Source of the DNA: a virus
Direction: 5' to 3' (one strand)
DNA length: 42,966 bases
IMG/VR virus record: IMGVR_UViG_3300021376_003130
Span: 1-42,966 of that record
Position 1 is the first letter of the stretch. Each line of letters opens with the position of its first letter. The notes beneath the pieces were generated by a model. The model made no database searches, had not been told where the DNA came from, and saw nothing but the letters and a program-made list of their open reading frames with translations. Shown one piece after another: positions 67-17,211 of this stretch. Made by a program: the position numbers and the translations under genes.

Positions 67-501
67 ATGAATGTCCGTAAAATAATTGGTATAGGAGCTC
101 TTTTCTATGCCATGCACACACAAAGGTTTTTATTTTTACACCGCACCCAAAGTAAAATATCTAATGTTTGGGGTCTCGTGGGAGGAAAAAATATAGATTC
201 TGAAACTCCGTGGGAATCACTCAGTAGGGAAATTGGCGAAGAAATTGGGCCAATAAAAATTATCAAAACTATTCCGCTTGAGACATTTGTGAGTAACGAT
301 GAAAATTTTCTATATCATACATATTTGTGTGTGGTAAAAGATGAATTTCTTCCTGTGCTGAATGAAGAACACGACGGTTATGCATGGGTTCAGTTTGGTA
401 AATGGCCAAAACCTCTGCATCAAGGATTACGCAATACTCTCACCAACAAAACCAATCAAATGAAATTAGAAACTGTATTTAAAATGTTGAAATTTTTATG
501 A
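67..501 (+). CDS. Nudix hydrolase
   Basis: This 144-residue protein carries a complete Nudix box at about residues 40-62: GKNIDSE, seven residues, then REIGEEIG, which matches GX5EX7REUXEEXGU. Nudix enzymes hydrolyse nucleoside diphosphates linked to another moiety, using a divalent metal held by the box glutamates. The length is typical of a single-domain family member. The substrate cannot be read from the sequence. Its neighbours are sugar-nucleotide genes, so a nucleotide sugar is a reasonable guess, but T4-like phages also carry Nudix enzymes acting on dinucleoside polyphosphates or RNA ends. The stop overlaps the hldE start as ATGA (498-501), which suggests translational coupling. The start at 67 directly precedes the conserved first strand. 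Confidence 0.85.
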   Translation: MNVRKIIGIGALFYAMHTQRFLFLHRTQSKISNVWGLVGGKNIDSETPWESLSREIGEEIGPIKIIKTIPLETFVSNDENFLYHTYLCVVKDEFLPVLNEEHDGYAWVQFGKWPKPLHQGLRNTLTNKTNQMKLETVFKMLKFL

Positions 502-1745
502 TAAAAATATTAGGTGATGTGATGTTGGATAGATGGATCAAAGGCACAGCCACACGCATGAGTCCGGAAGCACCCATTCCAATCATTTTAAAACAGGATG
601 AAAATTTAAATGCTGGCGGAGCTGCCAATGTTGCTGTGAATCTAGCACGTCTTAAAATAAAGGTAGATATCTGGGGTGCTATGTCTAATGACATAGAAGG
701 TTTCACTTTATTGAATTTGTTAGCGTATGAAGGCATGTCTATTAACATTAAAAGAGATGCTGATTACACCACCGAAAAAACAAGGATAATAGGTCAGGGT
801 GGACATCATGTGGTTAGATTAGATCGTGAAAAATTTTACACAGGCAACGTTGATGATGACTTTGTGGAAACATTGGAAAGAGATGACATTGTTGTGATCA
901 GTGATTATGCTAAAGGAGTTATTAAAATTGATACTGTGTCAAAAATTTTGTCAAAAACACACAACATATTTGTAGATCCTAAACAAAGTCCTCTGTTTTA
1001 TACTGGAGCGTTCTTGGTCAAACCAAACATGAAAGAATATATGATATGGAATGGTGATTTCGAAGTTGCAAGTGCGATAAAATTCATGCGCAAATATGAC
1101 TGGACTTGGTTGATAATTACAGAAGGATCAAAAGGTGTGCATATCTTACACACAGATGGACATTATCACCATCACAAAGAACCCAGCAAAGAAGTTGCTG
1201 ATGTATCAGGAGCAGGCGATGCTTTTCTAGCTGTGTTAATTTATGGAATAAACAAAGGATACTCTGTAAAACAAAGCTGTGAGCTTGCCTGTTATGCTGC
1301 AGCTAGGAATGTTGAAAAACAAGGAGTAGTACCAGTAAGTCCACAGGACATTGACAGAGGAGTAGTTTGGACCAATGGAGTATTTGATATCATACACACA
1401 GGACATCTTGAGCTACTAAAATTTGCTAAAAGCCAAGGAAAAAAACTAATAGTTGGAATCAATGATGACGACAGTGTAAAAAGATTGAAAGGTGCGGACA
1501 GACCAATTAACAAATGCGAAGTTAGAAAAAAACAATTGGAAATATTGAGCTGGGTAGATTCTGTAGTGGTGTTTTCTGAGGATACTCCAAAAAACATCTT
1601 GGAAAAAATACGTCCAGATGTAATAGTTAAAGGTGGAGATTACACTGTAGAAACAACAGTGGGAAATGATTTAGCCAAGGTGATAATTTTTCCAAAATTA
1701 GAAGGCTACAGCACTTCTAATATCATTAACAAACTAGTGAAATGA
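498..1745 (+). CDS. hldE: Bifunctional heptose-7-phosphate kinase / heptose-1-phosphate nucleotidyltransferase (HldE-type)
   Basis: This 415-residue protein has two domains in the order of bacterial HldE. Residues 1-285 form a PfkB/ribokinase-type kinase: GDVMLDRW at the start, the substrate-site GGAANVAVNLARL near 40-52, VDPK near 158, and the GAGDAF catalytic loop near 237-242. Residues about 290-415 form a nucleotidyltransferase with TNGVFDIIHTGH (the HxGH-type signature), VGINDDDSVKRLKG and a C-terminal STSNII. In bacteria HldE phosphorylates D-glycero-D-manno-heptose 7-phosphate at C1 and, after GmhB removes the 7-phosphate, transfers AMP to make ADP-heptose. At 415 residues it is somewhat shorter than E. 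coli HldE (about 477). It overlaps both neighbours by 4 bp. GmhA and GmhB are not in the window. Family assignment is strong; use of exactly the heptose substrate is inferred. Confidence 0.9.
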   Translation: MIKILGDVMLDRWIKGTATRMSPEAPIPIILKQDENLNAGGAANVAVNLARLKIKVDIWGAMSNDIEGFTLLNLLAYEGMSINIKRDADYTTEKTRIIGQGGHHVVRLDREKFYTGNVDDDFVETLERDDIVVISDYAKGVIKIDTVSKILSKTHNIFVDPKQSPLFYTGAFLVKPNMKEYMIWNGDFEVASAIKFMRKYDWTWLIITEGSKGVHILHTDGHYHHHKEPSKEVADVSGAGDAFLAVLIYGINKGYSVKQSCELACYAAARNVEKQGVVPVSPQDIDRGVVWTNGVFDIIHTGHLELLKFAKSQGKKLIVGINDDDSVKRLKGADRPINKCEVRKKQLEILSWVDSVVVFSEDTPKNILEKIRPDVIVKGGDYTVETTVGNDLAKVIIFPKLEGYSTSNIINKLVK

Positions 1746-2566
1746 ATATTTTATTAACTGGATACAAGGGTTTTATTGGTCAAAACTTACTGAAACATTT
1801 GCAATCACTGCTGCATAATGTGCAAGGGTTTGAATATCAACCAGGCATACTACCCAATCTAAGAGACATACATCAAGTGATACATTTGGGAGCTATTTCT
1901 AGCACCATTGAAAAAGATGTTGATAAAATTATTTCACAAAATTTTGAATTCAGTATGAGACTACTTTCATTGTGCAACAGTCTTAGAATAAATTTTCAAT
2001 ATGCCAGTTCAGCCAGTGTGTATGGCAACACAACAAATTTTAGAGAAAATGCAGCAAAAAGTCCCAATTCTCCTTACAGTTGGAGCAAATACATGTTTGA
2101 TCGATATGTGGAATCTGTTCCATACAGTCAATACAAAATAAAAATACAGGGATTCAGATACTTTAATGTATATGGACCTCATGAGGAACACAAATCAGAA
2201 CAGGCGTCTCCTATTACAAAATTTTCTATGCAAGCCAAAACTCAAAAAAAAATAATTATTTTTGAGAACAGTGAAAATTATAAAAGAGATTTTGTTTGCG
2301 TGCATGATGTGTGCAAGGTTCATGAATTGATGTTGCACAAACAAACTAGTGGCATTTTTAATGTTGGTACTGGCATTGCAACCAGCTTCAAAGAAGTGGC
2401 TGAATTAATAGCACAAAAGCATAAAGTTCCAATAGATATTGTTCCAATGCCAAAAATGTTGACTCATCAATATCAAACCTATACTTGCTCTAATAACGAA
2501 CTTTTAAATAAGCATATACAAATACGTTTTCAAACTGTTAAGGAATACATAGACAATGAAAAATAG
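1742..2566 (+). CDS. hldD: NAD(P)-dependent sugar epimerase, HldD-like
   Basis: This 274-residue extended short-chain dehydrogenase has the N-terminal nucleotide-binding GYKGFIG (residues 7-13), a serine-rich ASSASVYG strand near 87 and the catalytic YSWSK motif near 111. The segment RYFNVYGPHEEHK resembles the signature of ADP-L-glycero-D-manno-heptose 6-epimerase (HldD), which inverts C6 of ADP-heptose. It is shorter than E. coli HldD (about 310 residues) but contains both cofactor and catalytic motifs. It starts within the hldE stop (ATGA) and overlaps the next gene by 11 bp, so the genes are very likely co-translated. The neighbour HldE is the main reason for preferring HldD over a UDP-glucose 4-epimerase-like enzyme. 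Confidence 0.78.
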   Translation: MNILLTGYKGFIGQNLLKHLQSLLHNVQGFEYQPGILPNLRDIHQVIHLGAISSTIEKDVDKIISQNFEFSMRLLSLCNSLRINFQYASSASVYGNTTNFRENAAKSPNSPYSWSKYMFDRYVESVPYSQYKIKIQGFRYFNVYGPHEEHKSEQASPITKFSMQAKTQKKIIIFENSENYKRDFVCVHDVCKVHELMLHKQTSGIFNVGTGIATSFKEVAELIAQKHKVPIDIVPMPKMLTHQYQTYTCSNNELLNKHIQIRFQTVKEYIDNEK

Positions 2567-2957
2567 ATTAGAAGGTAAAATAACCAAAGGTTGGGGTTAT
2601 GAAATTATATGGGCCACCAATGATCAATATTGTGGAAAAATATTAGTGTTTGAAAAAATTGGCTCGAAATGCTCATTGCATTTTCACAAAGCTAAAGATG
2701 AGACTTGGTTTGTCAACAATGGCAAGTTTATAGTACGATGGATAGATACTAAAGATGCTAAACTTTATCAAAAAGAACTTACTGAGGGACAGACTTGGCA
2801 CAATCCTCCACTTCAACCACATCAATTAGAAGCTTTAATGGACAATAGTTCAATAACTGAAGTGAGCACAGCTGACAGTATTGAAGATAATTATAGGATA
2901 ATTCCTGGAGACACTCAAAAGAATGTTACGCCTGAGCTTCACCCCAACGTAAAATAA
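2556..2957 (+). CDS. Single-domain cupin protein
   Basis: This 133-residue protein matches cupin motif 1 exactly: GSKCSLHFHKAKDE followed by six residues and G (near residues 37-57), giving the HxH and Glu metal ligands. A second motif, GQTWHNPPLQPHQ, supplies the third His. The opening WGYEIIW resembles the cupin domain of type II mannose-6-phosphate isomerases and related sugar-modifying proteins. It could be a sugar-phosphate isomerase or epimerase, or a binding protein, acting in the same pathway as HldE and HldD; the substrate is unknown. It starts 11 bp inside hldD. Its 3' end overlaps the convergent giant fibre gene by 32 bp, so its last codons are read from both strands. Confidence 0.8.
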   Translation: MKNRLEGKITKGWGYEIIWATNDQYCGKILVFEKIGSKCSLHFHKAKDETWFVNNGKFIVRWIDTKDAKLYQKELTEGQTWHNPPLQPHQLEALMDNSSITEVSTADSIEDNYRIIPGDTQKNVTPELHPNVK

Positions 2958-5900
2958 CAGAACCTTGCACTGCTGCTCCTGTGGTCTTGTACACATTTAT
3001 GGCCAGCACGTCTGGACCGTTAGGAAATGCTCCTCTACCACCAATTGCAGTGGTAGTCAATTCTTTTAGATTGGATAAGTTCAGTGAATTCAAACTGCCG
3101 GGCTGACACAAAAATGAAAATACTTGTTCTCCTGGTACAGCATGTTGTTCAGGACCAAATTGGAAAGTAACAGTGGCACCTGCCGACACAGATGTGGTCA
3201 AGGTTTGAGTAAATGTGGCTCTTATCACGGTGGTAGTACTTAGAACGCGACTTGCCACTGCACTCACTGCTGTACCTGCTGGAAATTGAGTGAAAGCTGC
3301 TGCTATTCGAGATCCTACTGTGGCAGTGGAATTATTCCAAGTGGCCAGTGTGAAAAATATGAAGTTTCCTGTGTATGTAGAACCTGTGCCAGCTGCTTGT
3401 ACAGTTGTGCTTATGTTGGTCGCCGCAGCTGATGTGGCATTGGCCGCTGCACTCATTATAACTCTAGTGTACACAACACTTGCTACTGTGGCGTAGCTAG
3501 GCGTGATGGATGTGATGGTCTGATTGCCTGTTACAATAGATGCAACAGAGATTCTGTCACCCACTGCTATTTTGATATTTGTGTTGTCTGTGTTTGTAAC
3601 CAAAAAATCTGTTCTTCCAGACAAGAAAGCTCTATTATAGTTGAGTGAAATACTGTTTTGTATGGTCACACTGACGTTTGCGGCAACAGCACTCTGTGCG
3701 TTGGGAACCGCACTCATGGTTATTCTTGTGTAAATTGTACCCAGATAAGCTCTAGTGATGTTAGAAATAGTTTGACCGCCTGTGACGAAAGTAGCGACTG
3801 AAATTCTATCTCCTATGCGTAAAGGAGTTGCAGTTAAGCCGTCATACTGAGAGTTAGTTATAAAAAAATCGTTGGTGCTAGTCAAGAAAGCTCTAGTACG
3901 TCCTGCAATCACTGCAGAAACATCACCAATTGCTGTCACTGTTTGGCTGACTGTGCTGAATGCTCTTGCGGTGATAGTGGCTGTCAAGCTGCCTTGTATT
4001 GTGGTTGTGGTGGTGAATGCACCTGAGCCCCAGTCTACAGATCCTCCCAATGCTATCTGTGCAAAACTAGGCTGTCCGCCTGCAGCCGCAGTGTTCAGTG
4101 CAGTCCATGTGATTGAAGCTGGATTAGTTGGATAATTTTTTGGATTTAAGACGCCTTCTATCACAACTGAACCTGATCCTGTATCTGTGGTCACCGCCAC
4201 TTCATTCAATAACAATTGAGCTCTATTTAATAGATCTCTTTCTCCTAAGTCCCCCGCGATTGCATTGGACACAGACGGTGCTAATCTGATTAAAAAAGAT
4301 GTTTGTTTGGTAGTAGAGATGCTCAACGCAGTAGTGGCATAGTTGAACAGATATCCTCTATCTTCATCAAATCTACCATCTGTCAATAGCGCCGAACCCC
4401 AATGGCTTATTGTAGGAGTTGCTGTGCAGCTTATCAAAACTACTCCTGCTCCAACACTGTGAGCAGACGCACTAGCAGCAGTGAACAATCTGTTGGTTCC
4501 TGCTGTGAAAGCACTGTATGTAGAAGCTCTTGTGCAACTGGTCAAAGTATTGCCTGATTTTCCACCATATGTAATCAATTCATTATCTATATAAACTGTG
4601 CCATTAGTTGGAAATCTGCTGGCATCTGTCAAAGATATTGTGTTTTGAGCAGCAGTCATTGCAGCTGATAATTTATTTACTGCGCTTCTATTTTCTACTT
4701 CATATCGCACAGGTAAATTTGCAGTACGCATGTAAGCTTCTGTGTTGACGTTTGAATTTCTCAATTTATGACAGAAAACAAATCTTCCATCAGCTCCTCT
4801 CATCATCCATTCTACAAAACCTGCCGCGTACCATGAGTATTGCATACCTAACATCTGCATGCGCCAAGGTACAAGGTCATAACCGCTTGGACCATTTCCA
4901 TCAAGTGTATCAATGTTCCAATCATATTGTGGCATATATAATTCTTCAGTGATACAGATTCTAGCTCCGGTAACATTTGAGAAACCACGCCAGTCAGGTG
5001 CAATGTTCATTGATGTTTGTGAATTTATTAAAGTAACAATATGACTCATGCCTCTAATCACTATTTTATCACCTACTTTTAATTGATCTTGGAACCTTGT
5101 GCCTGTGCCTGTGACTAAATTACTGTCAACGTTTAGAGCGCATGATCCAGCCAATTGATTGGTGCTGGTTCTTCGTACCACTGCCATTTCTTGTCCGTCA
5201 TATTGATAAAATAAACCATTCTGTTCATCAAATGCTCCTATTCTAACAGTTGATCCATGCCAATACTTTAATAATATTTTACAATCTTGACCTAATTCTG
5301 CTGTGACTGTGGTCAGTACAACTGCATTTCTAACTTTGAAACTTCGCGCATCTACAACAGTCTCCACAGTATATTCTTGATTATATTCAAAACTTACGCA
5401 TCCGATAACCTCGATCACAGCTCCTGCTTGTAGTCCATGATCTGTATCATCCAGCGTGATTGTGATCACACTGTTGATAGCTGTACCATTGGCAGTGGCT
5501 GATGCTAGATTGTAGCTGGGAGCGAACAAGCCACCAGTGGTGTACATTATGCCTTTTCCTGATTGATATCTCACATACTTCTTACTTTGACGTATGGCTT
5601 GTGCGCCATGACTTGGATTACCTGTGCCCAATTGAACGCCACCGTCAAATGGTCTGTGTACAAAAAATGAATCTGGTCTTGCATACACCACACCGGTAAT
5701 GGATGCTGAAGTCACGTCCACAGTGCCAGTGGATCTAGCTGTAAATCTTATAGAGTTAGTTGATGGTACTGCTGATATCACGTGTGGACCAGTTCCTAGT
5801 TGATGATTAGCAGAAGTCAAGTTTATTTCAATTGCATTCGTTGAGTTATCAACCAATATAAATCTTCCAAAGCCTTGTCCTGTGTAAAAGGTATATGTTA

Positions 5901-8900
5901 AATTTCTATAAGTTGCATTTAAAGATAGAGTTCTTGAGGTAAATGATCCTGTGGTAGCATCGAAAGAGGTAAGCACTTCGTCCGTGCCTGATGCTACTAT
6001 TAAAAATACGTCATCACCAAATTCAACGTCAACCCAGTTTGAACCAGCTGGCAGTGAGACAGATGTCCATGTGACTCCGCTGGTGGATAAAGCAGCAGTG
6101 CTGGATCCAGTTGCCACCACAAAAAATCTATTGTTGCCAAAAGCAATGCCGCTCCATGTGGCCGATGCTGGCAGTGCTCCGCCCGAAATCCAGTTCAAAC
6201 CATTGTCCACTGAATACGCATTTGTAGTACCACCCGATGCAATAGCAACAAAATACACACTGGTTCCTACCAATCCATTTGTAATTTTGGTCCATGAAGT
6301 GCTGCTTGGCAAAGTGCCGCCTGCCGTCCAAGTGATACCATCTGTTGAATAAGCAGAGACGTTAGAACCACTGGCAATCGCCACAAAATATCCATTGCCA
6401 AAAGACACATCAATCCAGTTGGCAGAACTAGGCAGTGTGCTGGCTGTCCATGTTGCACCACTATCATTTGAATAGGCAGCAGCGTTAGAACCAGATGTAG
6501 CAATAACCACGAATCTGTCTGTACCACTCACTGTGCCTGCTGTGATTGCAGACCACGTGGCACTGCTGGGCAACGCACCTCCAGCTGACCATGTCTGTCC
6601 TGTGGTGGATACTTGAGTAGCAGTTGCTCCTTGTCTTACTGCTACAAATTTTCCGTTGAAACCTTTGACTGACCAGTTACCTGAACCTGTAAGAGTTCTA
6701 GTGGTAGAACTTAACGCAGGTGCTGGTGCAGAAGTCACTTGGGATAATATGGTAGTGCCTGGAATCAATCCATGTGCTGATGTAAAATCCACTTGAAAAG
6801 TAGCAATTGCGCCCACGTTTAAAAATACTCCAGCTGCTATGCCTGCAGTAAGAGCATCACTGAGACCTAATGTGCTGTACACAGTTAGTGTGTCCCCTGT
6901 AATTGGAGTGCCTGATATTGTCTGCCCTGTAATTGCTCCAGAGCCACTGATGGAAGTGATTAAAATTGTGGCATCATTGGCAGATGATAGTCCATCTAAA
7001 ACTGTGCCAAGCACAGTCAATCTGTTGCCTATTTCAAAGTTTGAACCTGGTGGAGACACCGCAACAGTATAAACTCCATTTGTTCTGGTCACATTAAATT
7101 GAGCACCAGTGCCTGCGTGTGCAATATTGCTAGGCACCACAGCCACATAGCTTGCATCTCCTGTAACTCCAATTGGGCTTCCAGTAATTGTAAATGTTGC
7201 AATTTCTCCACTGCCACCTACAGTGTCCACAGTCAACACTATATCATTTGCAGGTGAACTGCCACCTAAATCAGAGCCCGCAATAGTCAATGAGTCTGCC
7301 ACAGTATATCCTGTGCCAGCATTAGCAAGAGCAACGCTGTAAGCTCCTGTGCCTCCTGTGCGTACCACATTGAATGCTCCAGATGCTCCAGTGCCTCCTG
7401 TGGCCACCACAGCACTGTATGTGGCTCCTCCTGTGATTGAAGAGCCTGTGAATGTAAAAGCAGATATCGCTGATCCAGCCACCGCTGTAATCAGTATGGT
7501 AATATCATTAGCAGGAGTAGCTCCTCCTAAATCAGTACCAACTATTTTAATTTTGTCGCCTTGGAAATAGTCACTGCCAGGCGTATTAAGAGTTACTACA
7601 GTGTATGTGCCAGCTGAACGAGATACATCAAATGTTGATCCCGAACCTGCTGGAGCTATCAATGTGCCATTAACACTGTTGTTGGTGTGATCCCTGCCTT
7701 TGTATGCTGATCCTAATGTGCCGGTCATGGTCAAAGTTTGACCAACTATGGTAGCAACTGTGTTAGCAATGCCTGAAGAACTGATAGCCATACCATTTAG
7801 AATGCCAGTGGTGTCCACAACATCTATGTTGGTGTCTGTAGACAAGGCATTAGAAAGCGTGATAGCATTGATTGTACCAGTGCCAATTAATCCTGCTATT
7901 GAAGTTCCAGCTGCAATAGAAGCAGATCCAGTCACAGGTGATCCTACCACTGGAGCTGATCCAGTGTAAATAATTGAAGTGGCCCCGCTGGCTGCTGCGA
8001 AAGCCAACTGTATGCTGATAGCAGTACCATTACTGAACAATGAAAAGCTGGGTTGACCAATGGTGGCTCCTGTGAAAAAAGCTGCTGCTCGAATTTGTGC
8101 AAATGAAGTGAAAAGACTTTGACCCTCTGCAGTGCCAACTCTAGCGCTGGCAAAATATGTAAAGCTCACTGCACTGGGAGTGCTGAACACAATGAACGCG
8201 CCTTCGGCTCTAGCGAATCCTGACACTGTTGTATTCAAACCTTTCACAGTAATTGGATAACCTTTTTCTATACCGTGAGTACCATTTGTGGTCACAGTGA
8301 TCAACGAACTACCAAAGGCTCCAGTATTGATAGACGCGTCAGTAGTTATGGCTGAGATAGATAGATCACTTCCAGGAATTTCATACACAGAAGGATACAT
8401 TCTAATAAGTCCTAAGGCCTGCCATTTGGTAGGTTGAAGACCATATTCGAAGTCAGCATCCAACATGGCCTGAGGAGCGGCCACACGCATTCTTTCGATT
8501 GCGTCCGTGCCAAAGTCCCAAGGTCTTATTTCTTGGCTAGATTGTTCTACAAATATTTGAATACTAGCACTGCTGGTTAAGTTGCTGGTGTCAGCACTTA
8601 GATCTATTGTAGTAATTGCATCAGATTTTTGAGCCCAGGTTCTGAAATCTACATCACTTAATAAATTACCATCTCCACTGCTGCGTCCTTGTTTCAAACT
8701 GATAGATATAGAATTTGCAGGGTCAGCAAAACTGTACAATATTTCTGAATTGTCAGTGTCAGTGATCAATAGTATATCTGAAACGTCAAATTGTCCTATT
8801 ATTCTAATAGAACTTACGCCAGGAATTTTGGCAGGCATGGCTGGAATACCTGAAGTAATCACGGTTCTAAATATGTTCCATAAAGTGGTATTTTGTGCGG

Positions 8901-9576
8901 CTGCATCACTTTCCGCATTAATATTTGCATCTATCACCTGAGGTGTGGTGTTGCCATATGTGACTGGATTCTGAATATTTTCAAAAATATAATCATTAAT
9001 AATATCTCGTAGATAGGCTTGACCAGTGGTTTCTGGTGTGACATCTCCTCTGATCTGAGGTTCACCATCAATCCAAAAATAATCTGCTACCTGTCTGCTT
9101 TTGACATTGCCACCATATTTCACATCGTGAACAACTGCATCTATAAAAAATCCCACATCTCGTGTGCATTTTTGCGAAGCGTAAGTGTATCCTGTGTATG
9201 CTGATGTGATTGTGCCTGCCACAGTCTGTGAACCTGTGGTAGCACTTGAAAAACTTACTGATGTTGTGGTGCAAGCAGTCACAGTCTTTGTGCCATTGTA
9301 TCCTACAGGTGTGACTCCAGCCACAGTGATAGTCTGACCCACAATGTATGGAGGATATGCTTTGGTAGCAAAAGTGAGAGTGGCAGTGACACCATTGCCA
9401 GCGGCTGCTGTGGTAGTGATAGTTCCCACTGATATGCTGAAATCTATGAATTTTACTACTTGATTTTGTAAATGACTTTTGTTCAATAATAACAGTTGAG
9501 CTGCAAAAGGATATAGGCCATCATCCTTGCTGATACCAGGTTCAAACACATAATTTTTAATTTGCTTTTTAGCCAT
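2926..9576 (-). CDS. Giant mosaic tail fibre protein (2216 residues)
   Basis: This is one uninterrupted 2216-residue frame of low-complexity, Thr/Ser/Gly/Ala-rich beta sequence typical of phage fibres. Visible modules: a helical scaffold with KCTRDVGFFIDAVVHDVKYGG near residues 30-170, interrupted near 52-129 by a beta module; three copies of a module containing LGG.xPANDI-like cores near 640-890; an Asp-box region near 965-1210 with DSGATW, DGITW and DNGLNW repeats, as in BNR/sialidase-type propellers; and a more globular stretch with conserved Trp and Tyr (near 1540-1590). Asp-boxes mark a fold, not enzymatic activity. The N-terminus resembles parts of the 18948-25274 fibre. It has no obvious Shine-Dalgarno; a weak late-promoter-like site lies 28 bp upstream. 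It is probably a host-recognition structural protein. Confidence 0.8.
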   Translation of the reverse strand: MAKKQIKNYVFEPGISKDDGLYPFAAQLLLLNKSHLQNQVVKFIDFSISVGTITTTAAAGNGVTATLTFATKAYPPYIVGQTITVAGVTPVGYNGTKTVTACTTTSVSFSSATTGSQTVAGTITSAYTGYTYASQKCTRDVGFFIDAVVHDVKYGGNVKSRQVADYFWIDGEPQIRGDVTPETTGQAYLRDIINDYIFENIQNPVTYGNTTPQVIDANINAESDAAAQNTTLWNIFRTVITSGIPAMPAKIPGVSSIRIIGQFDVSDILLITDTDNSEILYSFADPANSISISLKQGRSSGDGNLLSDVDFRTWAQKSDAITTIDLSADTSNLTSSASIQIFVEQSSQEIRPWDFGTDAIERMRVAAPQAMLDADFEYGLQPTKWQALGLIRMYPSVYEIPGSDLSISAITTDASINTGAFGSSLITVTTNGTHGIEKGYPITVKGLNTTVSGFARAEGAFIVFSTPSAVSFTYFASARVGTAEGQSLFTSFAQIRAAAFFTGATIGQPSFSLFSNGTAISIQLAFAAASGATSIIYTGSAPVVGSPVTGSASIAAGTSIAGLIGTGTINAITLSNALSTDTNIDVVDTTGILNGMAISSSGIANTVATIVGQTLTMTGTLGSAYKGRDHTNNSVNGTLIAPAGSGSTFDVSRSAGTYTVVTLNTPGSDYFQGDKIKIVGTDLGGATPANDITILITAVAGSAISAFTFTGSSITGGATYSAVVATGGTGASGAFNVVRTGGTGAYSVALANAGTGYTVADSLTIAGSDLGGSSPANDIVLTVDTVGGSGEIATFTITGSPIGVTGDASYVAVVPSNIAHAGTGAQFNVTRTNGVYTVAVSPPGSNFEIGNRLTVLGTVLDGLSSANDATILITSISGSGAITGQTISGTPITGDTLTVYSTLGLSDALTAGIAAGVFLNVGAIATFQVDFTSAHGLIPGTTILSQVTSAPAPALSSTTRTLTGSGNWSVKGFNGKFVAVRQGATATQVSTTGQTWSAGGALPSSATWSAITAGTVSGTDRFVVIATSGSNAAAYSNDSGATWTASTLPSSANWIDVSFGNGYFVAIASGSNVSAYSTDGITWTAGGTLPSSTSWTKITNGLVGTSVYFVAIASGGTTNAYSVDNGLNWISGGALPASATWSGIAFGNNRFFVVATGSSTAALSTSGVTWTSVSLPAGSNWVDVEFGDDVFLIVASGTDEVLTSFDATTGSFTSRTLSLNATYRNLTYTFYTGQGFGRFILVDNSTNAIEINLTSANHQLGTGPHVISAVPSTNSIRFTARSTGTVDVTSASITGVVYARPDSFFVHRPFDGGVQLGTGNPSHGAQAIRQSKKYVRYQSGKGIMYTTGGLFAPSYNLASATANGTAINSVITITLDDTDHGLQAGAVIEVIGCVSFEYNQEYTVETVVDARSFKVRNAVVLTTVTAELGQDCKILLKYWHGSTVRIGAFDEQNGLFYQYDGQEMAVVRRTSTNQLAGSCALNVDSNLVTGTGTRFQDQLKVGDKIVIRGMSHIVTLINSQTSMNIAPDWRGFSNVTGARICITEELYMPQYDWNIDTLDGNGPSGYDLVPWRMQMLGMQYSWYAAGFVEWMMRGADGRFVFCHKLRNSNVNTEAYMRTANLPVRYEVENRSAVNKLSAAMTAAQNTISLTDASRFPTNGTVYIDNELITYGGKSGNTLTSCTRASTYSAFTAGTNRLFTAASASAHSVGAGVVLISCTATPTISHWGSALLTDGRFDEDRGYLFNYATTALSISTTKQTSFLIRLAPSVSNAIAGDLGERDLLNRAQLLLNEVAVTTDTGSGSVVIEGVLNPKNYPTNPASITWTALNTAAAGGQPSFAQIALGGSVDWGSGAFTTTTTIQGSLTATITARAFSTVSQTVTAIGDVSAVIAGRTRAFLTSTNDFFITNSQYDGLTATPLRIGDRISVATFVTGGQTISNITRAYLGTIYTRITMSAVPNAQSAVAANVSVTIQNSISLNYNRAFLSGRTDFLVTNTDNTNIKIAVGDRISVASIVTGNQTITSITPSYATVASVVYTRVIMSAAANATSAAATNISTTVQAAGTGSTYTGNFIFFTLATWNNSTATVGSRIAAAFTQFPAGTAVSAVASRVLSTTTVIRATFTQTLTTSVSAGATVTFQFGPEQHAVPGEQVFSFLCQPGSLNSLNLSNLKELTTTAIGGRGAFPNGPDVLAINVYKTTGAAVQGSVILRWGEAQA
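5950..6690 (-). repeat. Asp-box (BNR-type) repeats in the 2216-residue fibre
   Basis: Roughly five repeats of 40-45 residues, each with a W(S/T/V).(I/V)..G strand, a (F/V)(V/F)(V/A)(I/V)A strand and an Asp-box-like turn such as YSNDSGATW, YSTDGITW or YSVDNGLNW. A beta-propeller arm is likely; it need not have glycosidase activity. Confidence 0.65.
6900..7660 (-). repeat. Three tandem copies of a PAND-type beta module
   Basis: Protein-level repeats of about 80 residues in the 2216-residue fibre. Each contains a G(D/Y/N).(I/L)(K/T)(I/V).G(T/S).L(G/D)G..(P/S)AND core, then a glycine-flanked strand and (F/Q)T.(T/S)G(S/T).I. Related copies occur in the 2108- and 1777-residue fibres near 20330-20580 and 29770-30000. 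Confidence 0.65.
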
Positions 9577-9603
9577 TTTATTTTCTGTTGATGTAAGACA
9601 TTA

Positions 9604-9611
9604 TATTTACC
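9604..9611 (-). promoter_or_regulatory. Weak late promoter-like site (GGTAAATA)
   Basis: The minus strand reads GGTAAATA, 28 bp before the 2216-residue fibre start, and overlaps the last base of the upstream stop codon. It is the same octamer as the one before the cupredoxin-domain gene. Confidence 0.35.
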
Positions 9612-10321
9612 TATGCTCCAAAAGCCACAGCTAATGCTATGGCAGTTCTGTCCACGTAGTCTTTACGTGTAATATTTGAAGCCACAGTAGGCGCATTAGT
9701 CACTGTAGCACTGACAAAGGCTGCTGTGCTGGGTGTGGTCGCTCCTATGGTGGTGTTATTGATTGTGGTATTTTGCACAGGCACATTTGATCCTGTGGCA
9801 TCAATTCTTCCAACCTCGGTGCTCTGTCCTTGTGTTTTAAAAATCACATCACCCAATGGTTCAATTTCTAAATTAGACACAGTGCTGCCATCATCTACTG
9901 AAGCAATGAATGATGTGATCAGATTGGCATTGGTTTGTATGTTACCATAGGTTAGATTGGAGCCAAAAGTTGTTACATTGGTGCCCACAGTTAGAGCAGT
10001 GCCGATGTTCGCTTGTTGACCAACTATTATATTTTTTTGTATGCCCACACCACCAATGATTGCTAATGCTGCTCCTGACTCTGAAGCTGCTGTGTCATTC
10101 ACAATGGTAGTGAGATTCAAAGTGCTGTTTGAATCCACCTGAAGAGTGTCTTGTAATACAGTGGGTCCGGCCACTGTTAAAGATGTGGTTGAAATATCCA
10201 CAGCCGTAACAAATGTAGAGCTGGTAACACTGTTGGCTATCAGTTGACCTGTGGGAGATACACTAAAACCTAGGCTTTCAAAGCCATATTGCGAAATAAA
10301 AGGGTTATTAATCACGGGCAT
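9611..10321 (-). CDS. Small fibre-like structural protein
   Basis: This 236-residue protein opens with NNPFISQYGFESLGFSVSPTGQ and continues as Thr/Val/Asn-rich beta sequence with phrases (LTVAGPTVLQDTLQVD, GGVGIQKNIIVG, NITRKDYVDR) that recur in marine T4-like fibre proteins. The KDYVDR ending resembles NKKYVDDEIA in the 320-residue fibre protein at the right end of the window. A GATAAATA late-promoter match sits 29 bp upstream of the start and there is no strong Shine-Dalgarno. It probably encodes a short fibre or fibre-attachment subunit; no binding domain is recognisable. Confidence 0.65.
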   Translation of the reverse strand: MPVINNPFISQYGFESLGFSVSPTGQLIANSVTSSTFVTAVDISTTSLTVAGPTVLQDTLQVDSNSTLNLTTIVNDTAASESGAALAIIGGVGIQKNIIVGQQANIGTALTVGTNVTTFGSNLTYGNIQTNANLITSFIASVDDGSTVSNLEIEPLGDVIFKTQGQSTEVGRIDATGSNVPVQNTTINNTTIGATTPSTAAFVSATVTNAPTVASNITRKDYVDRTAIALAVAFGA

Positions 10322-10349
10322 AATTTTGCTCTAATAGTGTTTGTATTTG

Positions 10350-10357
10350 TATTTATC
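10350..10357 (-). promoter_or_regulatory. T4-type late promoter match (GATAAATA)
   Basis: The minus strand reads GATAAATA, 29 bp before the 236-residue fibre-like gene, in the 47-bp gap between two structural genes. Confidence 0.58.
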
Positions 10358-10368
10358 TAGGGTAGTCT

Positions 10369-10773
10369 TTAAGTGGTGACTGGATTAAGAGTTTCAAAAT
10401 ACGTAGCTTGAAACGTTATTTTAGAATCATTGTACGCACTGCTGCTGGCGCTGGCTAGCAATTGTATGTTGGTGTAGTTAACCACAGCATTTAGATTAAT
10501 CAACTCATTGCCTAAATTAGCACGGCCATATATTGTAACTGTGGCTGTTTCAGGGCCGCCTACAACAAGACATCTAATAATTTCCTTGTTCGCTGTGTTG
10601 AAATCTACAAATATGGTGTATTCAGCAGCTGACACTGAAGTGAAAGGCCATTTATCTATCACTGTGTTGTCGCGAATAGCTGTAAAATTAGTGCCCACTG
10701 AAAAGTTCAATCCGTTCTTTAATAAAAGAGTGTTTCTTGGACCTTTTCCAAACAATTGACTTACATCAAACAT
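10369..10773 (-). CDS. Small structural protein (unrecognised)
   Basis: This 134-residue protein begins MFDVSQLFGKGPRNTLLLKNGLNF and consists of alternating hydrophobic strands with no transmembrane segment or signal peptide. I do not recognise the family. The N-terminal segment looks like a short anchor, followed by a beta-sandwich-like body comparable in size to the other 106-134 residue proteins scattered between the fibre genes. It sits between the fibre block and the glycosylation genes. An AATAAATA late-promoter-like site lies only 7 bp before the start codon, so either the transcript would be nearly leaderless or that match is fortuitous. Confidence 0.6.
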   Translation of the reverse strand: MFDVSQLFGKGPRNTLLLKNGLNFSVGTNFTAIRDNTVIDKWPFTSVSAAEYTIFVDFNTANKEIIRCLVVGGPETATVTIYGRANLGNELINLNAVVNYTNIQLLASASSSAYNDSKITFQATYFETLNPVTT

Positions 10774-10779
10774 ATGTTG

Positions 10780-10787
10780 TATTTATT
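10780..10787 (-). promoter_or_regulatory. Late promoter-like site very close to a start codon (AATAAATA)
   Basis: The minus strand reads AATAAATA only 7 bp before the 134-residue gene's ATG. If used, transcription would begin at or beside the start codon. Confidence 0.35.
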
Positions 10788-10796
10788 GATAAAAAT

Positions 10797-11747
10797 TTAC
10801 TTTTTATTCTTTTTGTAGCCGTGTTTAATAAAACTATTTACAGATTGTACTATCTTAGTTTCTATTTCTTTATCCATATTCATTGCATTTTCATTGGCTC
10901 TGTCCACAGTTTCATCTATGGTTATTCTTAATGGACTGTAGATTCTTTTTTCTGCATTCATATTGATGCAGTGAAATTTAGGATTATCAGGATATGACAC
11001 ATTGATTGGATAGGTAGACCCTAGCACTACCGTGGCTGTTTTTTCAAAAGCATGTGCAATATGTTGTCCAAGACTGTCGCATCCTAAAAAATGATCGCAC
11101 TGTTTAATAACAGAAGCCCAGACTCTTACATGTACTCCTTGTGGATTGGCCACTGGAAAATTTATCTGATATTTGGAAAAATCTATTGGCGACTCTGTCA
11201 TAATAATCATAGCATAGGTTTTTCCGAGTTGTCTTATTAGACTAATTGTATTATCAATTTCAAAACTTCTACCACTAATGTCTATGAAATTATCATCTTG
11301 ATTCTTGCTCATTCTTCCAAATGGTTGAAACACTATAACTTTTTCTTTGCCTGTTTTTTCCTTAACTTCTTTGATCATTTGACGTGCAAATATTAATTCT
11401 TCTTTATTAAGAAATATTTGTGGTAATTCTAATTTTCGTATTCCTTTGTTGTTAATTTCTATATCGTATGCCTGCCCAATGCTGCATTTTTGATTGTAAT
11501 ATTCCCATACTCTGTATGGTTCTGGGCTAAGAATTTTCCTTGTCAACAGTAGATCTTGAAACAAATTTTTATGCCAAACATCATATGCTCGTGCATGTAG
11601 TAGTGGATGTCCTTTGTAGAAATCTGTGCCACCTTCGCACACAATTATAAAATCATCTTTAGTATTTTCTTTTGCATATGTATCTAACGCTGATACTGAA
11701 GATAATGTTCTACCTGCTCCACCATTTATAAAAAAAGCACTGTGCAT
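10797..11747 (-). CDS. GT9-like (heptosyltransferase-type) glycosyltransferase A
   Basis: This 316-residue protein has the layout of family 9 GT-B glycosyltransferases, which transfer heptose or related sugars from nucleotide sugars. An N-terminal NGGAGRTLSSVSALDTY corresponds to the acceptor-side loop, VIVFQPFG to the start of the second Rossmann domain, and CDHFLGCDSLGQHIAHAF followed by TVVLGSTYPIN (residues about 215-245) to the conserved donor-binding region. It is a clear paralogue of the protein at 13544-14488: both contain EPYRVWEYYNQKC and the INNKGIRKL segment. It starts directly after the carbamoyltransferase stop, in one apparent operon. The sugar and acceptor are unknown; heptose is inferred from the hldE/hldD genes. 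The lysine-rich C-terminus (YKKNKK) is unusual. Confidence 0.72.
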   Translation of the reverse strand: MHSAFFINGGAGRTLSSVSALDTYAKENTKDDFIIVCEGGTDFYKGHPLLHARAYDVWHKNLFQDLLLTRKILSPEPYRVWEYYNQKCSIGQAYDIEINNKGIRKLELPQIFLNKEELIFARQMIKEVKEKTGKEKVIVFQPFGRMSKNQDDNFIDISGRSFEIDNTISLIRQLGKTYAMIIMTESPIDFSKYQINFPVANPQGVHVRVWASVIKQCDHFLGCDSLGQHIAHAFEKTATVVLGSTYPINVSYPDNPKFHCINMNAEKRIYSPLRITIDETVDRANENAMNMDKEIETKIVQSVNSFIKHGYKKNKK

Positions 11748-11748
11748 T

Positions 11749-13554
11749 TTAGTTAGGAACGTATATTAGTTTCTTGTGTTCGGGAAGATATAGATATTCT
11801 ATTTTAGAATTAATCAAGGTTCGCACAGCATCTTCTAGTGTTTCAACTAATGGTTCTCCGCCCAGATTGAATGAAGTATTGAATATGATCGGCACTTGCG
11901 TTTTTTTATAAAAAGCATTGATAAGATTATGATAGTGTAGATTTTGTTTTTGCGTGATAGTTTGTATTCTACACGTGCCATCCACATGTATAATGCTAGG
12001 TATCTGTTCAGCTTTGCCTGGTTTACAATCCACGGCATACATCATAAATGGACTATCTTTCATACCTCGTAAATCAAACCATTCATGCACGTGTTCTTGC
12101 AGTATTGTGCCTGCAAATGGTCGGAAGTATTCTCTTTTCTTCACCACATTTACAAAATCTTTGCCGTCAGCGAATCTTGGATCAAACAATAATGATCTAT
12201 TACCTAAAGCTCTAGGGCCATTTTCAGATCTACCTTGAAACAGTGCCACAATATTTTTGCCGATTATCAAATCTATTACGTCAGAATCTTGTGCGTCTTT
12301 TAGAATTACTTTTTGATTATCACACATAGATTGTATATGAGCTATTGAATAATGCCTATCAGGCCCCAAATAAAGAGTATTGTGTGCTACAATGTTTTTG
12401 TTAGGTAATATTTGATGATAGAACAAAAGTGCTGCCCCGATTGCTGTGCCTGCGTCATTACTGATCGGCTCCACATATAAATCAATTTGATCTTTTTGCA
12501 AAAATTCTAAGTAAGAATAATTTGCCACACAATTTAATCCATAGCCCCCTGATAACACTACTTTTTTCTTACCCGTCATTTGAACAGCTCTGTATATTAG
12601 TTTTAAAACCTGTGTTTGTGTCTCCAATTGACAATGATAAGCCATGTCTCTGCGATTTTGTAATTTTGTGACGTCATCAAATTCTTTATCTGTGGGGTCT
12701 TCTAAGAATTCGAACATTTGTGAATTCACTAGTGCAGCATTAGGATATGTGGGTAATATTAAATTTCTATTTGATAATTCAGCTTTGGAGTTGCTTTCAA
12801 ACAAAGGAGGAATGTTTGGATTTTTTTTACCATAAGGAAAAAGTCCCATAGTTTTTCCTGCTTCAATAGGCATAAAGCCACAGTACTGAGTAACTGCCTC
12901 ATAAACTTTCACTATGCCTGCTCTGTCAGAAAAAACAGCTTCGTGGGTTTTGCCTGGTTCATCTGTAATTTCAGAAGGAAAGTTACGAAATACTGCGCCC
13001 ATTACAGGTTCCTTGGTGCCGTAATGTTTGTATAATGAAACAAAATTAGCAGGATAATCACATCCAATAATTGATTCAACTTCCCACACAGTGGTTGGCC
13101 CTTGCCTACTGTTGTTAATACCCAAAAATGTTCCCGCACCATCAACTATAACACTGACTGCACTATCAAAACCACTGCGATAGAAAGCACAGGCAGCATG
13201 AAGTTTATGATGTATGTGACTTAAATCAATTACCTGTGGGTGATTCATCACGTCTGCTTGTCTATCAATCAATCCAAGTTTGCGAGCTAGACCTGTGTAC
13301 ACATCATCACCGGTAAAATCTACTCTACCTGCTGTATCTTTAATTTTTTGTGTGTGTGCTATGATCAAATAATCAATTTTGTCAGTGTATTTTAAAATTT
13401 CTATCATTGAAGCATAAGGACCTCCATCATATTTGTGTCTGCTGAGTCTTTCTTCTTCCACGCTAAAAATAATGTTGCCATCTTTCAAAAGGCAAACACC
13501 AGCATTATGTCCTCTAGTGATGGCGGCTATATATCCAGTAGTTTTACTTGTCAT
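11749..13554 (-). CDS. Sugar O-carbamoyltransferase (NodU/CmcH/TobZ family)
   Basis: This 601-residue protein is full length for the family. The N-terminal Kae1-like domain shows GHNAGVCLLKDG and SVEEERLSRHKYD (residues 15-42), the metal-binding histidines in HIHHKLHAA (113-121) and VDGAGTF. The middle contains LSGGYGLNCVAN and SNDAGTAIGAAL, and residues near 445 read SENGPRALGNRSLL followed by KREYFRPFAGTIL, the usual family signature. Known members use carbamoyl phosphate and ATP to form carbamoyl-adenylate and carbamoylate a sugar hydroxyl. It lies between two GT9-like genes, overlapping one by 11 bp and 1 bp from the other, so a sugar transferred by those enzymes is the likely substrate. 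All key motifs appear intact, so it is probably active. Confidence 0.9.
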   Translation of the reverse strand: MTSKTTGYIAAITRGHNAGVCLLKDGNIIFSVEEERLSRHKYDGGPYASMIEILKYTDKIDYLIIAHTQKIKDTAGRVDFTGDDVYTGLARKLGLIDRQADVMNHPQVIDLSHIHHKLHAACAFYRSGFDSAVSVIVDGAGTFLGINNSRQGPTTVWEVESIIGCDYPANFVSLYKHYGTKEPVMGAVFRNFPSEITDEPGKTHEAVFSDRAGIVKVYEAVTQYCGFMPIEAGKTMGLFPYGKKNPNIPPLFESNSKAELSNRNLILPTYPNAALVNSQMFEFLEDPTDKEFDDVTKLQNRRDMAYHCQLETQTQVLKLIYRAVQMTGKKKVVLSGGYGLNCVANYSYLEFLQKDQIDLYVEPISNDAGTAIGAALLFYHQILPNKNIVAHNTLYLGPDRHYSIAHIQSMCDNQKVILKDAQDSDVIDLIIGKNIVALFQGRSENGPRALGNRSLLFDPRFADGKDFVNVVKKREYFRPFAGTILQEHVHEWFDLRGMKDSPFMMYAVDCKPGKAEQIPSIIHVDGTCRIQTITQKQNLHYHNLINAFYKKTQVPIIFNTSFNLGGEPLVETLEDAVRTLINSKIEYLYLPEHKKLIYVPN

Positions 13555-14488
13555 CCTTATTTCTCCTCATCACTTCATTAATCATCCAATTTTCAATTTC
13601 TTCATTCATGCTCATTATTAATTCATTTTTCCTCATTATTCTTTCATCCATAGTGATGCGTATTGGATCATATTCTCTATCTAGCTCACCCATGTCACAC
13701 ACTCTAAAATATGTGCAATCGGGATAGCTGGTATTAATTGGAAAAGTAGGGCCTAAAATAACTGTGCTTGGTATTTCCATGCAGTAGGCAAGATGTTGTC
13801 CCACGCTGTCACAGCCAAAGAAATGATCAGAATGTTTGATAACTGAAGCCCATTGTCGCAAATTTAATCTTTCAGGCGCAGCTACCTCATCTGTGTATTT
13901 TTCACCAGTAAAATCCATGCCAAATTCTGCCATGATTATTACTGCAAATTTTTCTGCTTGCAATTTTCTTATCAAACTTTTAGTATTTCTATATTCTATA
14001 CTTCTGCCGGTTTTGTCCACGAAACTGCCATCAATGTGTTCTATACCTCGGCCAAATGGTTGAAACACAATCACTTTGTTGTGTTTAATTTTAGTTTTTA
14101 TTTGTTCAACAATTTTTTTTCCTTGTAAAATTTCTTCTTTACTCAAAATAATTGTTGGTTTTGAAAGTTTTCTTATGCCTTTGTTGTTTATTAAAATATC
14201 GAATGCTTGGCTTAAATTGCATTTTTGATTGTAGTATTCCCATACTCTGTATGGCTCTAGGCTCACAACATCTTTACTTTGTAACTTTGTGTGAAATAAA
14301 TTTTTATGAAATATGTCATATGTTTTTGCATCTAATACTGGATGACCTTTCAATATGTCAACTGCACCTTCACACACAACTAAAAAGTCTTTATCTCCTG
14401 ATTCTTCATGATATTTTTCCAGTGCAGGAATAGCACATAAGATTCTACCAATACCACCATTCAAAAAAAATGCTTTGGATCTAACCAT
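13544..14488 (-). CDS. GT9-like (heptosyltransferase-type) glycosyltransferase B
   Basis: This 314-residue protein is paralogous to the one at 10797-11747 along its whole length. Landmarks are NGGIGRILCAIPALEKY near the N-terminus, EPYRVWEYYNQKC, INNKGIRKL, VIVFQPFGR, and SDHFFGCDSVGQHLAYCM followed by STVILGPTFPIN in the donor-binding half. It is the first gene of the three-gene operon with the carbamoyltransferase, whose start lies 11 bp inside it. A weak AATAAATT late-promoter-like site lies 44 bp upstream. The pair probably arose by duplication and may add two successive sugars or act on two acceptors. The donor is inferred, not shown. A GT-B enzyme for a different sugar remains possible. 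Confidence 0.72.
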   Translation of the reverse strand: MVRSKAFFLNGGIGRILCAIPALEKYHEESGDKDFLVVCEGAVDILKGHPVLDAKTYDIFHKNLFHTKLQSKDVVSLEPYRVWEYYNQKCNLSQAFDILINNKGIRKLSKPTIILSKEEILQGKKIVEQIKTKIKHNKVIVFQPFGRGIEHIDGSFVDKTGRSIEYRNTKSLIRKLQAEKFAVIIMAEFGMDFTGEKYTDEVAAPERLNLRQWASVIKHSDHFFGCDSVGQHLAYCMEIPSTVILGPTFPINTSYPDCTYFRVCDMGELDREYDPIRITMDERIMRKNELIMSMNEEIENWMINEVMRRNKDDK

Positions 14489-14544: not shown

Positions 14545-15204
14545 TTAATATACAGGTACTTGATGTTTGAAAGGAATTTTCCAATGCTTTACATTGGCAT
14601 ATTTGGTTGGCACTGCTTTTAACCATGCAACATATTCTTGCAGCTTTATTTTATCTTCTGCTGAAATTAAATCTGCCTTTTCAACGAAAGCCTTTTCGAT
14701 TGCATTGATTTGCACCACTAAACTTGCTAGGAAACTTTCTCTGCTTAATATGTGCACTCTAAATCCTGGTCTTATCCACGCACCATTTTTGAATTTCATA
14801 TCAATGTGAAGATATTGCTGACCTATCATACCATTGTTGTCGTCCCAACCGTATGTAAAAGTCTCTGGCTTACCATCCTCATCGACTGTGCCAATATCTT
14901 CAGAATAATCTTCTACTTTGCCTGTGTCATAATAACCAGATATGTAAGCAGCTTCAAATGTGTGCACAGTGGCATCAATTTTTTCATACAATTTGCCTGG
15001 TTCTTTAGGATAGCTTGTGAATTTGTCCATTTCAACTAAAGAATCTGTGCCAAACACTGTATTTTCTACCACGCCAGTTGACTGATCTACTTTCACTAAA
15101 AGATATCTTGGTCCTGTGTATGTGGCAGTGTAGGTTTTGTTTAGTGCAGTGGTGCCTACGTAAGGCTCATCTGTCAACGGGATTTGAAAAGTCTTCTTAA
15201 TCAT
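14545..15204 (-). CDS. Structural or tail fibre assembly-like protein
   Basis: This 219-residue, mostly polar protein lacks a signal peptide and membrane segments. The C-terminal 40 residues (DKIKLQEYVAWLKAVPTKY, then KHWKIPFKHQVP) resemble the ending of phage tail fibre assembly chaperones, where a helix of the form LQxWxxYxxxL is followed by a Trp/Pro segment. Its position beside the three glycine-rich adhesin-like genes fits that role. The N-terminal half, with DEPYVGTTALNKTYTATYTGPRY split over two strands, has no match I know. Two late-promoter matches, CATAAATA and GATAAATA, lie 13 and 23 bp upstream. An ordinary structural subunit is the alternative. Confidence 0.55.
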   Translation of the reverse strand: MIKKTFQIPLTDEPYVGTTALNKTYTATYTGPRYLLVKVDQSTGVVENTVFGTDSLVEMDKFTSYPKEPGKLYEKIDATVHTFEAAYISGYYDTGKVEDYSEDIGTVDEDGKPETFTYGWDDNNGMIGQQYLHIDMKFKNGAWIRPGFRVHILSRESFLASLVVQINAIEKAFVEKADLISAEDKIKLQEYVAWLKAVPTKYANVKHWKIPFKHQVPVY

Positions 15205-17207: not shown

Positions 17208-17211
17208 ATCA

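Follow-up and report, generated by a model that had tools for sequence, protein, structure and literature searches.

How a phage could make a heptose without GmhA, and what it would attach it to, is the question raised by positions 1 to 42,966 of IMG/VR record IMGVR_UViG_3300021376_003130, a 42,966-base fragment of a T4-like phage that was analysed whole and is called the window here. Its plus strand carries genes for a Nudix hydrolase, an HldE-type fused kinase/nucleotidyltransferase, an HldD-type epimerase and a cupin, and its minus strand carries a carbamoyltransferase gene between two genes for GT9-like glycosyltransferases (Table 1). The reading preferred here, at a probability of about 0.6, is that the phage encodes an ADP-heptose pathway and decorates its own particle with the product. 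Even odds are given to a wider, two-part proposal: that the cupin family of phages, DPANN archaea and Candidate Phyla Radiation (CPR) bacteria represents a novel class of sedoheptulose-7-phosphate isomerase, not homologous to GmhA, and that T4-like phages build a carbamoylated heptose on their own Cys/Gly-rich tail proteins.

Open reading frame and family searches found the genes named in a preliminary description of the window present and intact at the coordinates of Table 1, with family matches far beyond chance. The four plus-strand genes (67-2957) overlapped by 4-11 nt and the three minus-strand genes ran head to tail, abutting or overlapping by 11 nt, an arrangement that resembles translationally coupled operons. 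The best PDB matches of the HldE-type protein were HldA 4e84 (E = 1.6e-28) and the cytidylyltransferase 5x9q (E = 5e-25). Loss of its active sites was looked for, and in alignments to both structures the kinase and nucleotidyltransferase motifs were intact (Asp241 in GAGD; HxGH at 300-303); Asp241, His300, His303 and Lys378 were invariant in 123 homologues. The HldD-type protein matched E. coli HldD best (1eq2, E = 1.6e-45) and retained the catalytic Tyr and Lys (E. coli Tyr140 and Lys178). Among 233 homologues, Tyr112 and Lys116 were invariant and Lys151, the equivalent of E. coli Lys178, was present in 209. Both proteins scored under the curated equivalog cut-offs (HldE-type, 216.5 vs. 345 and 150.4 vs. 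181.5 bits with TIGR02198 and TIGR02199; HldD-type, 228.5 vs. 274.6 bits with TIGR02197), and the "-type" wording therefore fits. An Arg in the nucleotidyltransferase motif has been tied to the use of several nucleoside triphosphates (PMC11573728); the window enzyme lacks it, which suggests, by inference, that ADP-heptose is its only product.

The cupin, which the preliminary description had listed without a role, is present, and a role as isomerase is proposed for it from its profile, active site and gene context. A profile of 29 phage cupins had the D-lyxose ketol-isomerase of B. subtilis (2y0o, E = 9e-7) as its top PDB match, and also matched the Thermofilum enzyme 7nzo (E = 1.4e-4). The C2-C3 configuration is the same in lyxose, mannose and manno-heptose, so the stereochemistry suits the cupin as an isomerase; the GmhA reaction on sedoheptulose-7-phosphate is a ketose-to-aldose isomerisation yielding the manno configuration. 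In the Thermofilum enzyme (TsLI), sugar and manganese are bound by K62, H75, H77, K86, E88, H143, E156 and D163, and mutating the equivalents of K86, E156 and D163 kills activity (PMC8378251). The phage cupin has K28, H42, H44, K47, E49, H89, E102 and D111 at these positions in the same order, with near-identical spacing. The metal ligands (H42, H44, E49 and H89) were intact in the window protein, and each of the eight residues was kept in at least 226 of 227 phage homologues and in 69 of 69 cellular ones. Phage cupins differ from the D-lyxose/D-mannose ketol-isomerases of the 2Y0O, 3KMH and 7NZO type, with which they share these residues, in being shorter (about 120-135 vs. at least 170 aa), in lying in another gene context and in falling short of the Pfam lyxose isomerase model PF07385 (P-SSM2 cupin, 17.4 bits; cut-off, 20.8). 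Judged by sequence, they are a separate family related to the PF07385 isomerases. The AlphaFold model of the cupin (pLDDT 89.9) has a fold different from the SIS fold of GmhA.

A model of gmhA, the SIS-fold phosphoheptose isomerase, had no match in any of the 51 phage records searched, among them the complete genomes of four cyanophages with heptose genes, and was positive in the control genomes. The "phosphoheptose isomerase" annotated in cyanophages was rejected as such: the protein is an EcbF/BcbF-type HAD phosphatase with D8, D10, T49, K94, D102 and D103 conserved. RefSeq names look wrong at NC_006883.2 239311-239992 and its equivalents in NC_031906.1, NC_015287.1 and NC_028955.1, these cyanomyovirus records labelling the HAD phosphatase "phosphoheptose isomerase" and the ketol-isomerase-like cupin "cysteine dioxygenase".

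A cupin-based scan of archaea and bacteria yielded 80 cellular loci. The gene order cupin-HldD-HldA-GmhB-HldC occurred in several Woesearchaeota and Nanoarchaeota loci and one Nomurabacteria locus (L360, L367, L371, L375, L376 and L386), and L355 had the same operon with GmhB and HldC fused. Kinases exceeded the curated cut-off in all five archaeal/Nomurabacteria operons tested and in L367 (378-395 vs. 345 bits), as did the HldC nucleotidyltransferase of L367 (196 vs. 181.5 bits), and the epimerases of these operons were just under theirs (257-274 vs. 274.6 bits). The kinase lay within 2 kb of the cellular cupin in 25 of 30 cases, and the nucleotidyltransferase (30 of 31) and GmhB (12 of 12) within 4 kb, with almost none farther away. 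The cupins of the archaeal operons formed their own clade (support 99/99, in a tree of few columns), and the association of cupin and heptose genes is therefore phylogenetically independent there. The cupin probably replaces GmhA as a non-homologous sedoheptulose-7-phosphate isomerase, because it has the full active site, lies among heptose genes both in phages and, as an independent association, in operons of archaea and CPR bacteria, and is found where the tested phages have no GmhA. In CPR bacteria (L355, 2523-3509; L338, 12236-13303), GmhB and the heptose nucleotidyltransferase were joined in one protein, in both orders.

Many cupins are sugar epimerases, and a fold search with the cupin was unspecific, isomerases being scattered among many cupins and CapF cupins ranking high; active-site residues and gene context were therefore used instead. 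This outcome would suit a cupin that acts on a later sugar intermediate, with host GmhA supplying heptose-7-phosphate. Such a role is improbable, given that all eight ketol-isomerase residues are conserved and that the archaeal and CPR operons already fill every other ADP-heptose step. Some cupin-bearing archaea also have a GmhA-like SIS protein, which is potential evidence counter to an isomerase role of the cupin, and contigs with weak gmhA matches were read (four archaeal and one bacterial, L557). In three of the four archaeal contigs, the SIS gene sat beside an HddA-like GHMP-type kinase and an HddC-like nucleotidyltransferase, a set apart from the cupin genes that also speaks against action of the cupin on a later intermediate; the fourth (L553) had a SIS gene without the HddA-like kinase. 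Two of the three also carried GmhB-like and transaldolase-like genes. From their motifs, we read these archaeal SIS operons as a GDP-heptose (HddA/HddC) pathway. An identity of the SIS proteins as 6-phospho-3-hexuloisomerase was checked and not supported. The three GDP-heptose-like operons (L554, L555 and L556) lie in genomes that also hold cupin-type ADP-heptose genes.

The gene set is not unique to the window. Four scans of IMG/VR placed it in at least hundreds of viral contigs, and the locus counts that follow are among the matches listed in these scans; many marine and freshwater T4-like phages carry heptose-synthesis genes. Relatives annotated with profiles built in this analysis fell into two architectures. 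The split type had separate nucleotidyltransferase and kinase genes plus a HAD in 78 of 80 loci (partly by choice, the HAD being the query of one scan). The fused type, which includes the window, had a fused HldE, an upstream Nudix gene and no HAD. In other relatives, the phosphatase step is covered by GmhB, which adjoined the cupin in 30 of 97 testable fused-type loci, or by the EcbF-type HAD. The proposal of a precursor supplied by the host or by genes beyond the window keeps its force for the GmhB step, which is unfilled in the window, and loses it for the isomerase step, which the cupin very probably performs. Of 145 testable fused-type loci, 134 had the Nudix gene immediately before the fused HldE, a fixed position, yet it has no obvious role in heptose synthesis.

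The heptose-synthesis and transfer genes occurred together in related phages, as the preliminary description had proposed to check. GT9 was present in 37 of 48 cupin/HldE records, and a close cupin (E < 1e-37) in 31 of 49 GT9 records; a further three had weaker cupins, and fragments are numerous among these records. Among reference phages, all non-fragment records with a near-full-length GT9 of more than 35% identity had the cupin, and several cupin phages had no GT9; it thus seems that GT9 requires the heptose genes but that they do not require GT9. That the genes are non-functional stuffer DNA for headful packaging, a possibility raised for cyanophages (PMC3037559), is scarcely credible beside intact frames, catalytic residues invariant over hundreds of divergent phages, and conserved gene order and overlaps.

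GT9-like copies a and b were 50% identical and both belonged to phrog_8954. The window proteins gave one weak heptosyltransferase III match and none to the Pfam GT9 model PF01075 (P-SSM2 protein, 15.4 bits; cut-off, 22), and the GT9 profile had no informative match among PDB sequences, so that fold comparison was needed. With the AlphaFold model of copy a (pLDDT 90.5), the first 30 PDB matches in Foldseek were all GT9 enzymes or heptosyltransferases, including TibC, WaaF and WaaC, and the clustering with enzymes for unrelated sugars that was looked for did not appear. The TMq was about 0.6 with TibC, which heptosylates an adhesin (PMC4358343), vs. 0.5 with WaaC. The GT9-like proteins are predicted heptosyltransferases on the basis of this model. 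The motif G-G-x-G-R was invariant in the phage alignment. The four-cysteine iron finger of TibC was absent from that alignment, which had one nearly invariant Cys only (C226), and the phage GT9 therefore stands outside the TibC family. It shares the GT-B fold and the predicted ADP-heptose donor with the autotransporter heptosyltransferases TibC and Aah, which heptosylate an adhesin, and differs from them also in having no detectable sequence similarity and in being phage-encoded (PMC4358343). The carbamoyltransferase had its Carbam_trans_N and Carbam_trans_C domains both over cut-off and matched PDB carbamoyltransferases with E down to 3e-53. A precedent for the carbamoyl-heptose step is the WapO system of Pseudomonas lipopolysaccharide (LPS), in which a carbamoyltransferase-family enzyme likewise caps heptose, the acceptor there being the bacterial LPS core (PMC8005017).

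Late genes of the window matched phage tail, baseplate and virion families in profile searches, and the near-identical contig L248, which extends leftwards past the window, has open reading frames there that resemble, by our own reading, T4-like tail sheath and neck genes. The GT9-carbamoyltransferase-GT9 group is flanked upstream by three Cys/Gly-rich paralogues and a 219-aa gene, and downstream by 134-aa, 236-aa and 2216-aa virion genes. The paralogues (15244-18195, minus strand; family about 327 aa) were 9-10% Cys (30-32 residues in each protein) and 16-17% Gly, with a conserved MCCCG..GNPGAY-like stretch and no Pfam match; the composition is unusual for a phage late protein. In 103 of 134 loci, GT9 had Cys/Gly-rich genes on its upstream side. 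With this family alone as query, 65 of 76 loci had a GT9 no more than 9 kb away, the others being mostly contigs that ended first; with the carbamoyltransferase family alone as query, GT9 was found in 76 of 78. In 125 of 134 loci, no more than 3.2 kb separated a carbamoyltransferase from GT9, and the 218-aa and 138-aa families, to which the 219-aa and 134-aa window proteins belong, flanked GT9 in 80 and 83 loci. A tblastn search with one Cys/Gly-rich protein had no match in the reference phages; S-CAM3 and P-SSM2 have genes adjoining GT9 that meet the same composition filter. Because GT9 and carbamoyltransferase are linked to the Cys/Gly-rich genes and to conserved late neighbours, the evidence points to a virion protein of the tail region as acceptor, most likely the adjacent Cys/Gly-rich proteins. 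The preliminary description had likewise suggested a fibre or other virion protein, in place of host polysaccharide, as a possible target.

The standing view of such genes in pelagimyophages, echoed by the cyanophage name "LPS genes", would instead place the heptose on a host surface glycan during infection, as LPS/O-chain remodelling that might, for example, block superinfection (PMC7029224, PMC3037559). The LPS-acting WaaC and WaaF are also among the fold matches, and carbamoylated heptose is known on LPS. Against this, TibC outscored the LPS enzymes in the fold comparison; GT9 and carbamoyltransferase sit in a cassette of late structural genes, tens of bp from conserved late neighbours, and have almost without exception a single Cys/Gly-rich family linked to them; and late expression would leave little time for surface remodelling. 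A host acceptor is rather unlikely. Hypermodification of phage DNA bases by the carbamoyltransferase and glycosyltransferase is very unlikely. A NodU/TobZ-type enzyme from a phage contig does carbamoylate 5-hydroxymethylcytosine, but the DNA-acting enzymes in that study co-occurred with thymidylate synthase homologues and the carbamoyltransferases of unmodified contigs lay near glycosyltransferases (PMC8670742), and the partner here is a heptosyltransferase-fold enzyme among tail genes.

In the preferred reading, decoration of the particle with a phage-made heptose, ADP-heptose synthesis, heptosyltransferase-type transfer and carbamoylation stand as predicted functions, in agreement with the preliminary description. 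From gene content, active sites, linkage and folds we infer the catalytic activities, the acceptor, the order of transfer and carbamoylation, and the benefit to the phage. The cupin would isomerise sedoheptulose-7-phosphate and the kinase half of HldE would form the 1,7-bisphosphate, from which a HAD phosphatase would strip the 7-phosphate (GmhB or the EcbF/BcbF type in relatives; host-supplied or promiscuous for the window). The C-terminal half of HldE would then yield ADP-D,D-heptose, and the HldD-type enzyme, by C6 epimerisation, ADP-L,D-heptose. The GT9-like enzymes would move the heptose onto a late protein of the virion, with the neighbouring Cys/Gly-rich proteins of the tail region as the likeliest acceptors, and the NodU/TobZ-type enzyme would add a carbamoyl cap. 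Adhesion, stability or shielding of the particle may be the benefit.

Besides the unspecific fold search, several observations weigh against this pathway. A dedicated heptose-bisphosphate phosphatase was not found in the window or its nearest relatives, and the window cupin had no match to PF07385. The catalytic Asp of WaaC is apparently Arg in the phage GT9 motif GGAGR, by our own reading of the alignment. Several cyanophages (S-SM2, P-TIM68 and Bellamy) have heptose genes without this GT9, and heptose must therefore have further uses. Gene linkage is the basis of the acceptor assignment.

The combination of genes, unfamiliar to the preliminary description, proved to be known already as a gene set: cyanophage genomes carry annotations of it, and part of it was noted in 2010. 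Within the cyanomyovirus "LPS gene cluster" (P-SSM2, S-SSM7 and S-SM2; T4-GC 302-308), T4-GC 304, 305, 307 and 308 were reported to co-occur, leaving open whether they are functional or stuffer DNA (Sullivan et al. 2010; PMC3037559). P-SSM2, S-SSM7 and S-CAM3 carry the same set at equivalent genome positions, with genes for GT9, carbamoyltransferase, nucleotidyltransferase, kinase, HAD, cupin and a reversed epimerase and with tail fibre or neck genes around them. The cyanomyovirus cluster has a split HldE and an EcbF-type HAD, whereas the window has a fused HldE, a preceding Nudix gene and two GT9 genes flanking the carbamoyltransferase. Judged by family membership and active sites, the window has the kinase, nucleotidyltransferase and epimerase of the bacterial GmhA-HldE-GmhB-HldD pathway, but it lacks GmhB and has the cupin in place of GmhA. 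Mycobacteriophages have glycans on virion proteins (Freeman et al. 2023, cited in PMC12619734), with heptose or carbamoyl not mentioned in the citing paper. An incomplete literature search found no paper that connects a cupin to both sedoheptulose and heptose, or to phosphoheptose isomerase.

A second, unrelated enzyme is thereby proposed for the entry step of ADP-heptose synthesis, and with a cupin in place of GmhA, searches for GmhA would miss heptose producers in phages, archaea and CPR bacteria. The cyanophage puzzle of functional genes or stuffer (PMC3037559) becomes a concrete pathway, testable step by step. Why viruses and archaea make heptose was unsolved according to a 2024 paper (PMC11573728), and heptosylation plus carbamoylation of tail-region proteins is a candidate answer for phages; it would matter for how an abundant group of aquatic phages recognises its hosts and for the stability of the particles.

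Table 1. Features of the heptose locus and its surroundings, with window coordinates
Feature	Coordinates	Strand	Evidence
Nudix hydrolase, conserved first gene of the fused-HldE-type module	67..501	+	PF00293 51.9 bits
HldE-type fused heptose-7-phosphate kinase / heptose-1-phosphate adenylyltransferase (predicted)	498..1745	+	PF00294 111 bits, PF01467 76 bits, PRK11316 E=1.3e-96
HldD-type ADP-heptose 6-epimerase (predicted), shortened near N-terminus	1742..2566	+	TIGR02197 E=1e-67
Cupin, predicted sedoheptulose-7-phosphate ketol-isomerase	2556..2957	+	Profile, active site, gene context
2216-aa virion structural protein (fibre-like), convergent with cupin gene	2926..9576	-	phrog_5838 771 bits
236-aa conserved late protein downstream of GT9-carbamoyltransferase	9611..10321	-	Family in 77 GT9 loci
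134-aa conserved late protein just downstream of GT9-carbamoyltransferase	10369..10773	-	Family in 83 GT9 loci, median gap 44 bp
GT9-like glycosyltransferase copy b, predicted heptosyltransferase	10797..11747	-	phrog_8954 440 bits
NodU/TobZ-type O-carbamoyltransferase (NodU/CmcH-type)	11749..13554	-	PF16861 193 bits, PF02543 87 bits
GT9-like glycosyltransferase copy a, predicted heptosyltransferase	13544..14488	-	phrog_8954 428 bits
219-aa conserved late protein just upstream of GT9	14545..15204	-	Family in 80 GT9 loci, median gap ~84 bp
Cys/Gly-rich late protein copy 3, candidate acceptor	15244..16206	-	32 Cys in 320 aa; phrog_4205 weak
Cys/Gly-rich late protein copy 2, candidate acceptor	16206..17207	-	32 Cys in 333 aa
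Cys/Gly-rich late protein copy 1, candidate acceptor	17212..18195	-	30 Cys in 327 aa; phrog_4205 weak

A DNA similarity search of the window against known phages gave a single 82-base match, and tRNA and Rfam searches across it gave none. In split-type relatives, a flavin-dependent (Trp) halogenase-like gene recurred in the interval between carbamoyltransferase and nucleotidyltransferase (e.g., L199, 1974-3422; L186, 7145-8632; 24 cluster members). Several unrelated-looking families of 2-oxoglutarate (2OG)-Fe(II) oxygenase-like proteins occurred at varied points of the module (e.g., L102, 7881-8489; L280, 4826-5296; L294, 13139-13714) and might hydroxylate the acceptor or the sugar; neither kind of gene was found in the module of the window. 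Contigs L319 and L320, filed under a Neomarinimicrobiota genome, bear the phage module in its fused form; they are probably phage sequences within a metagenome bin.

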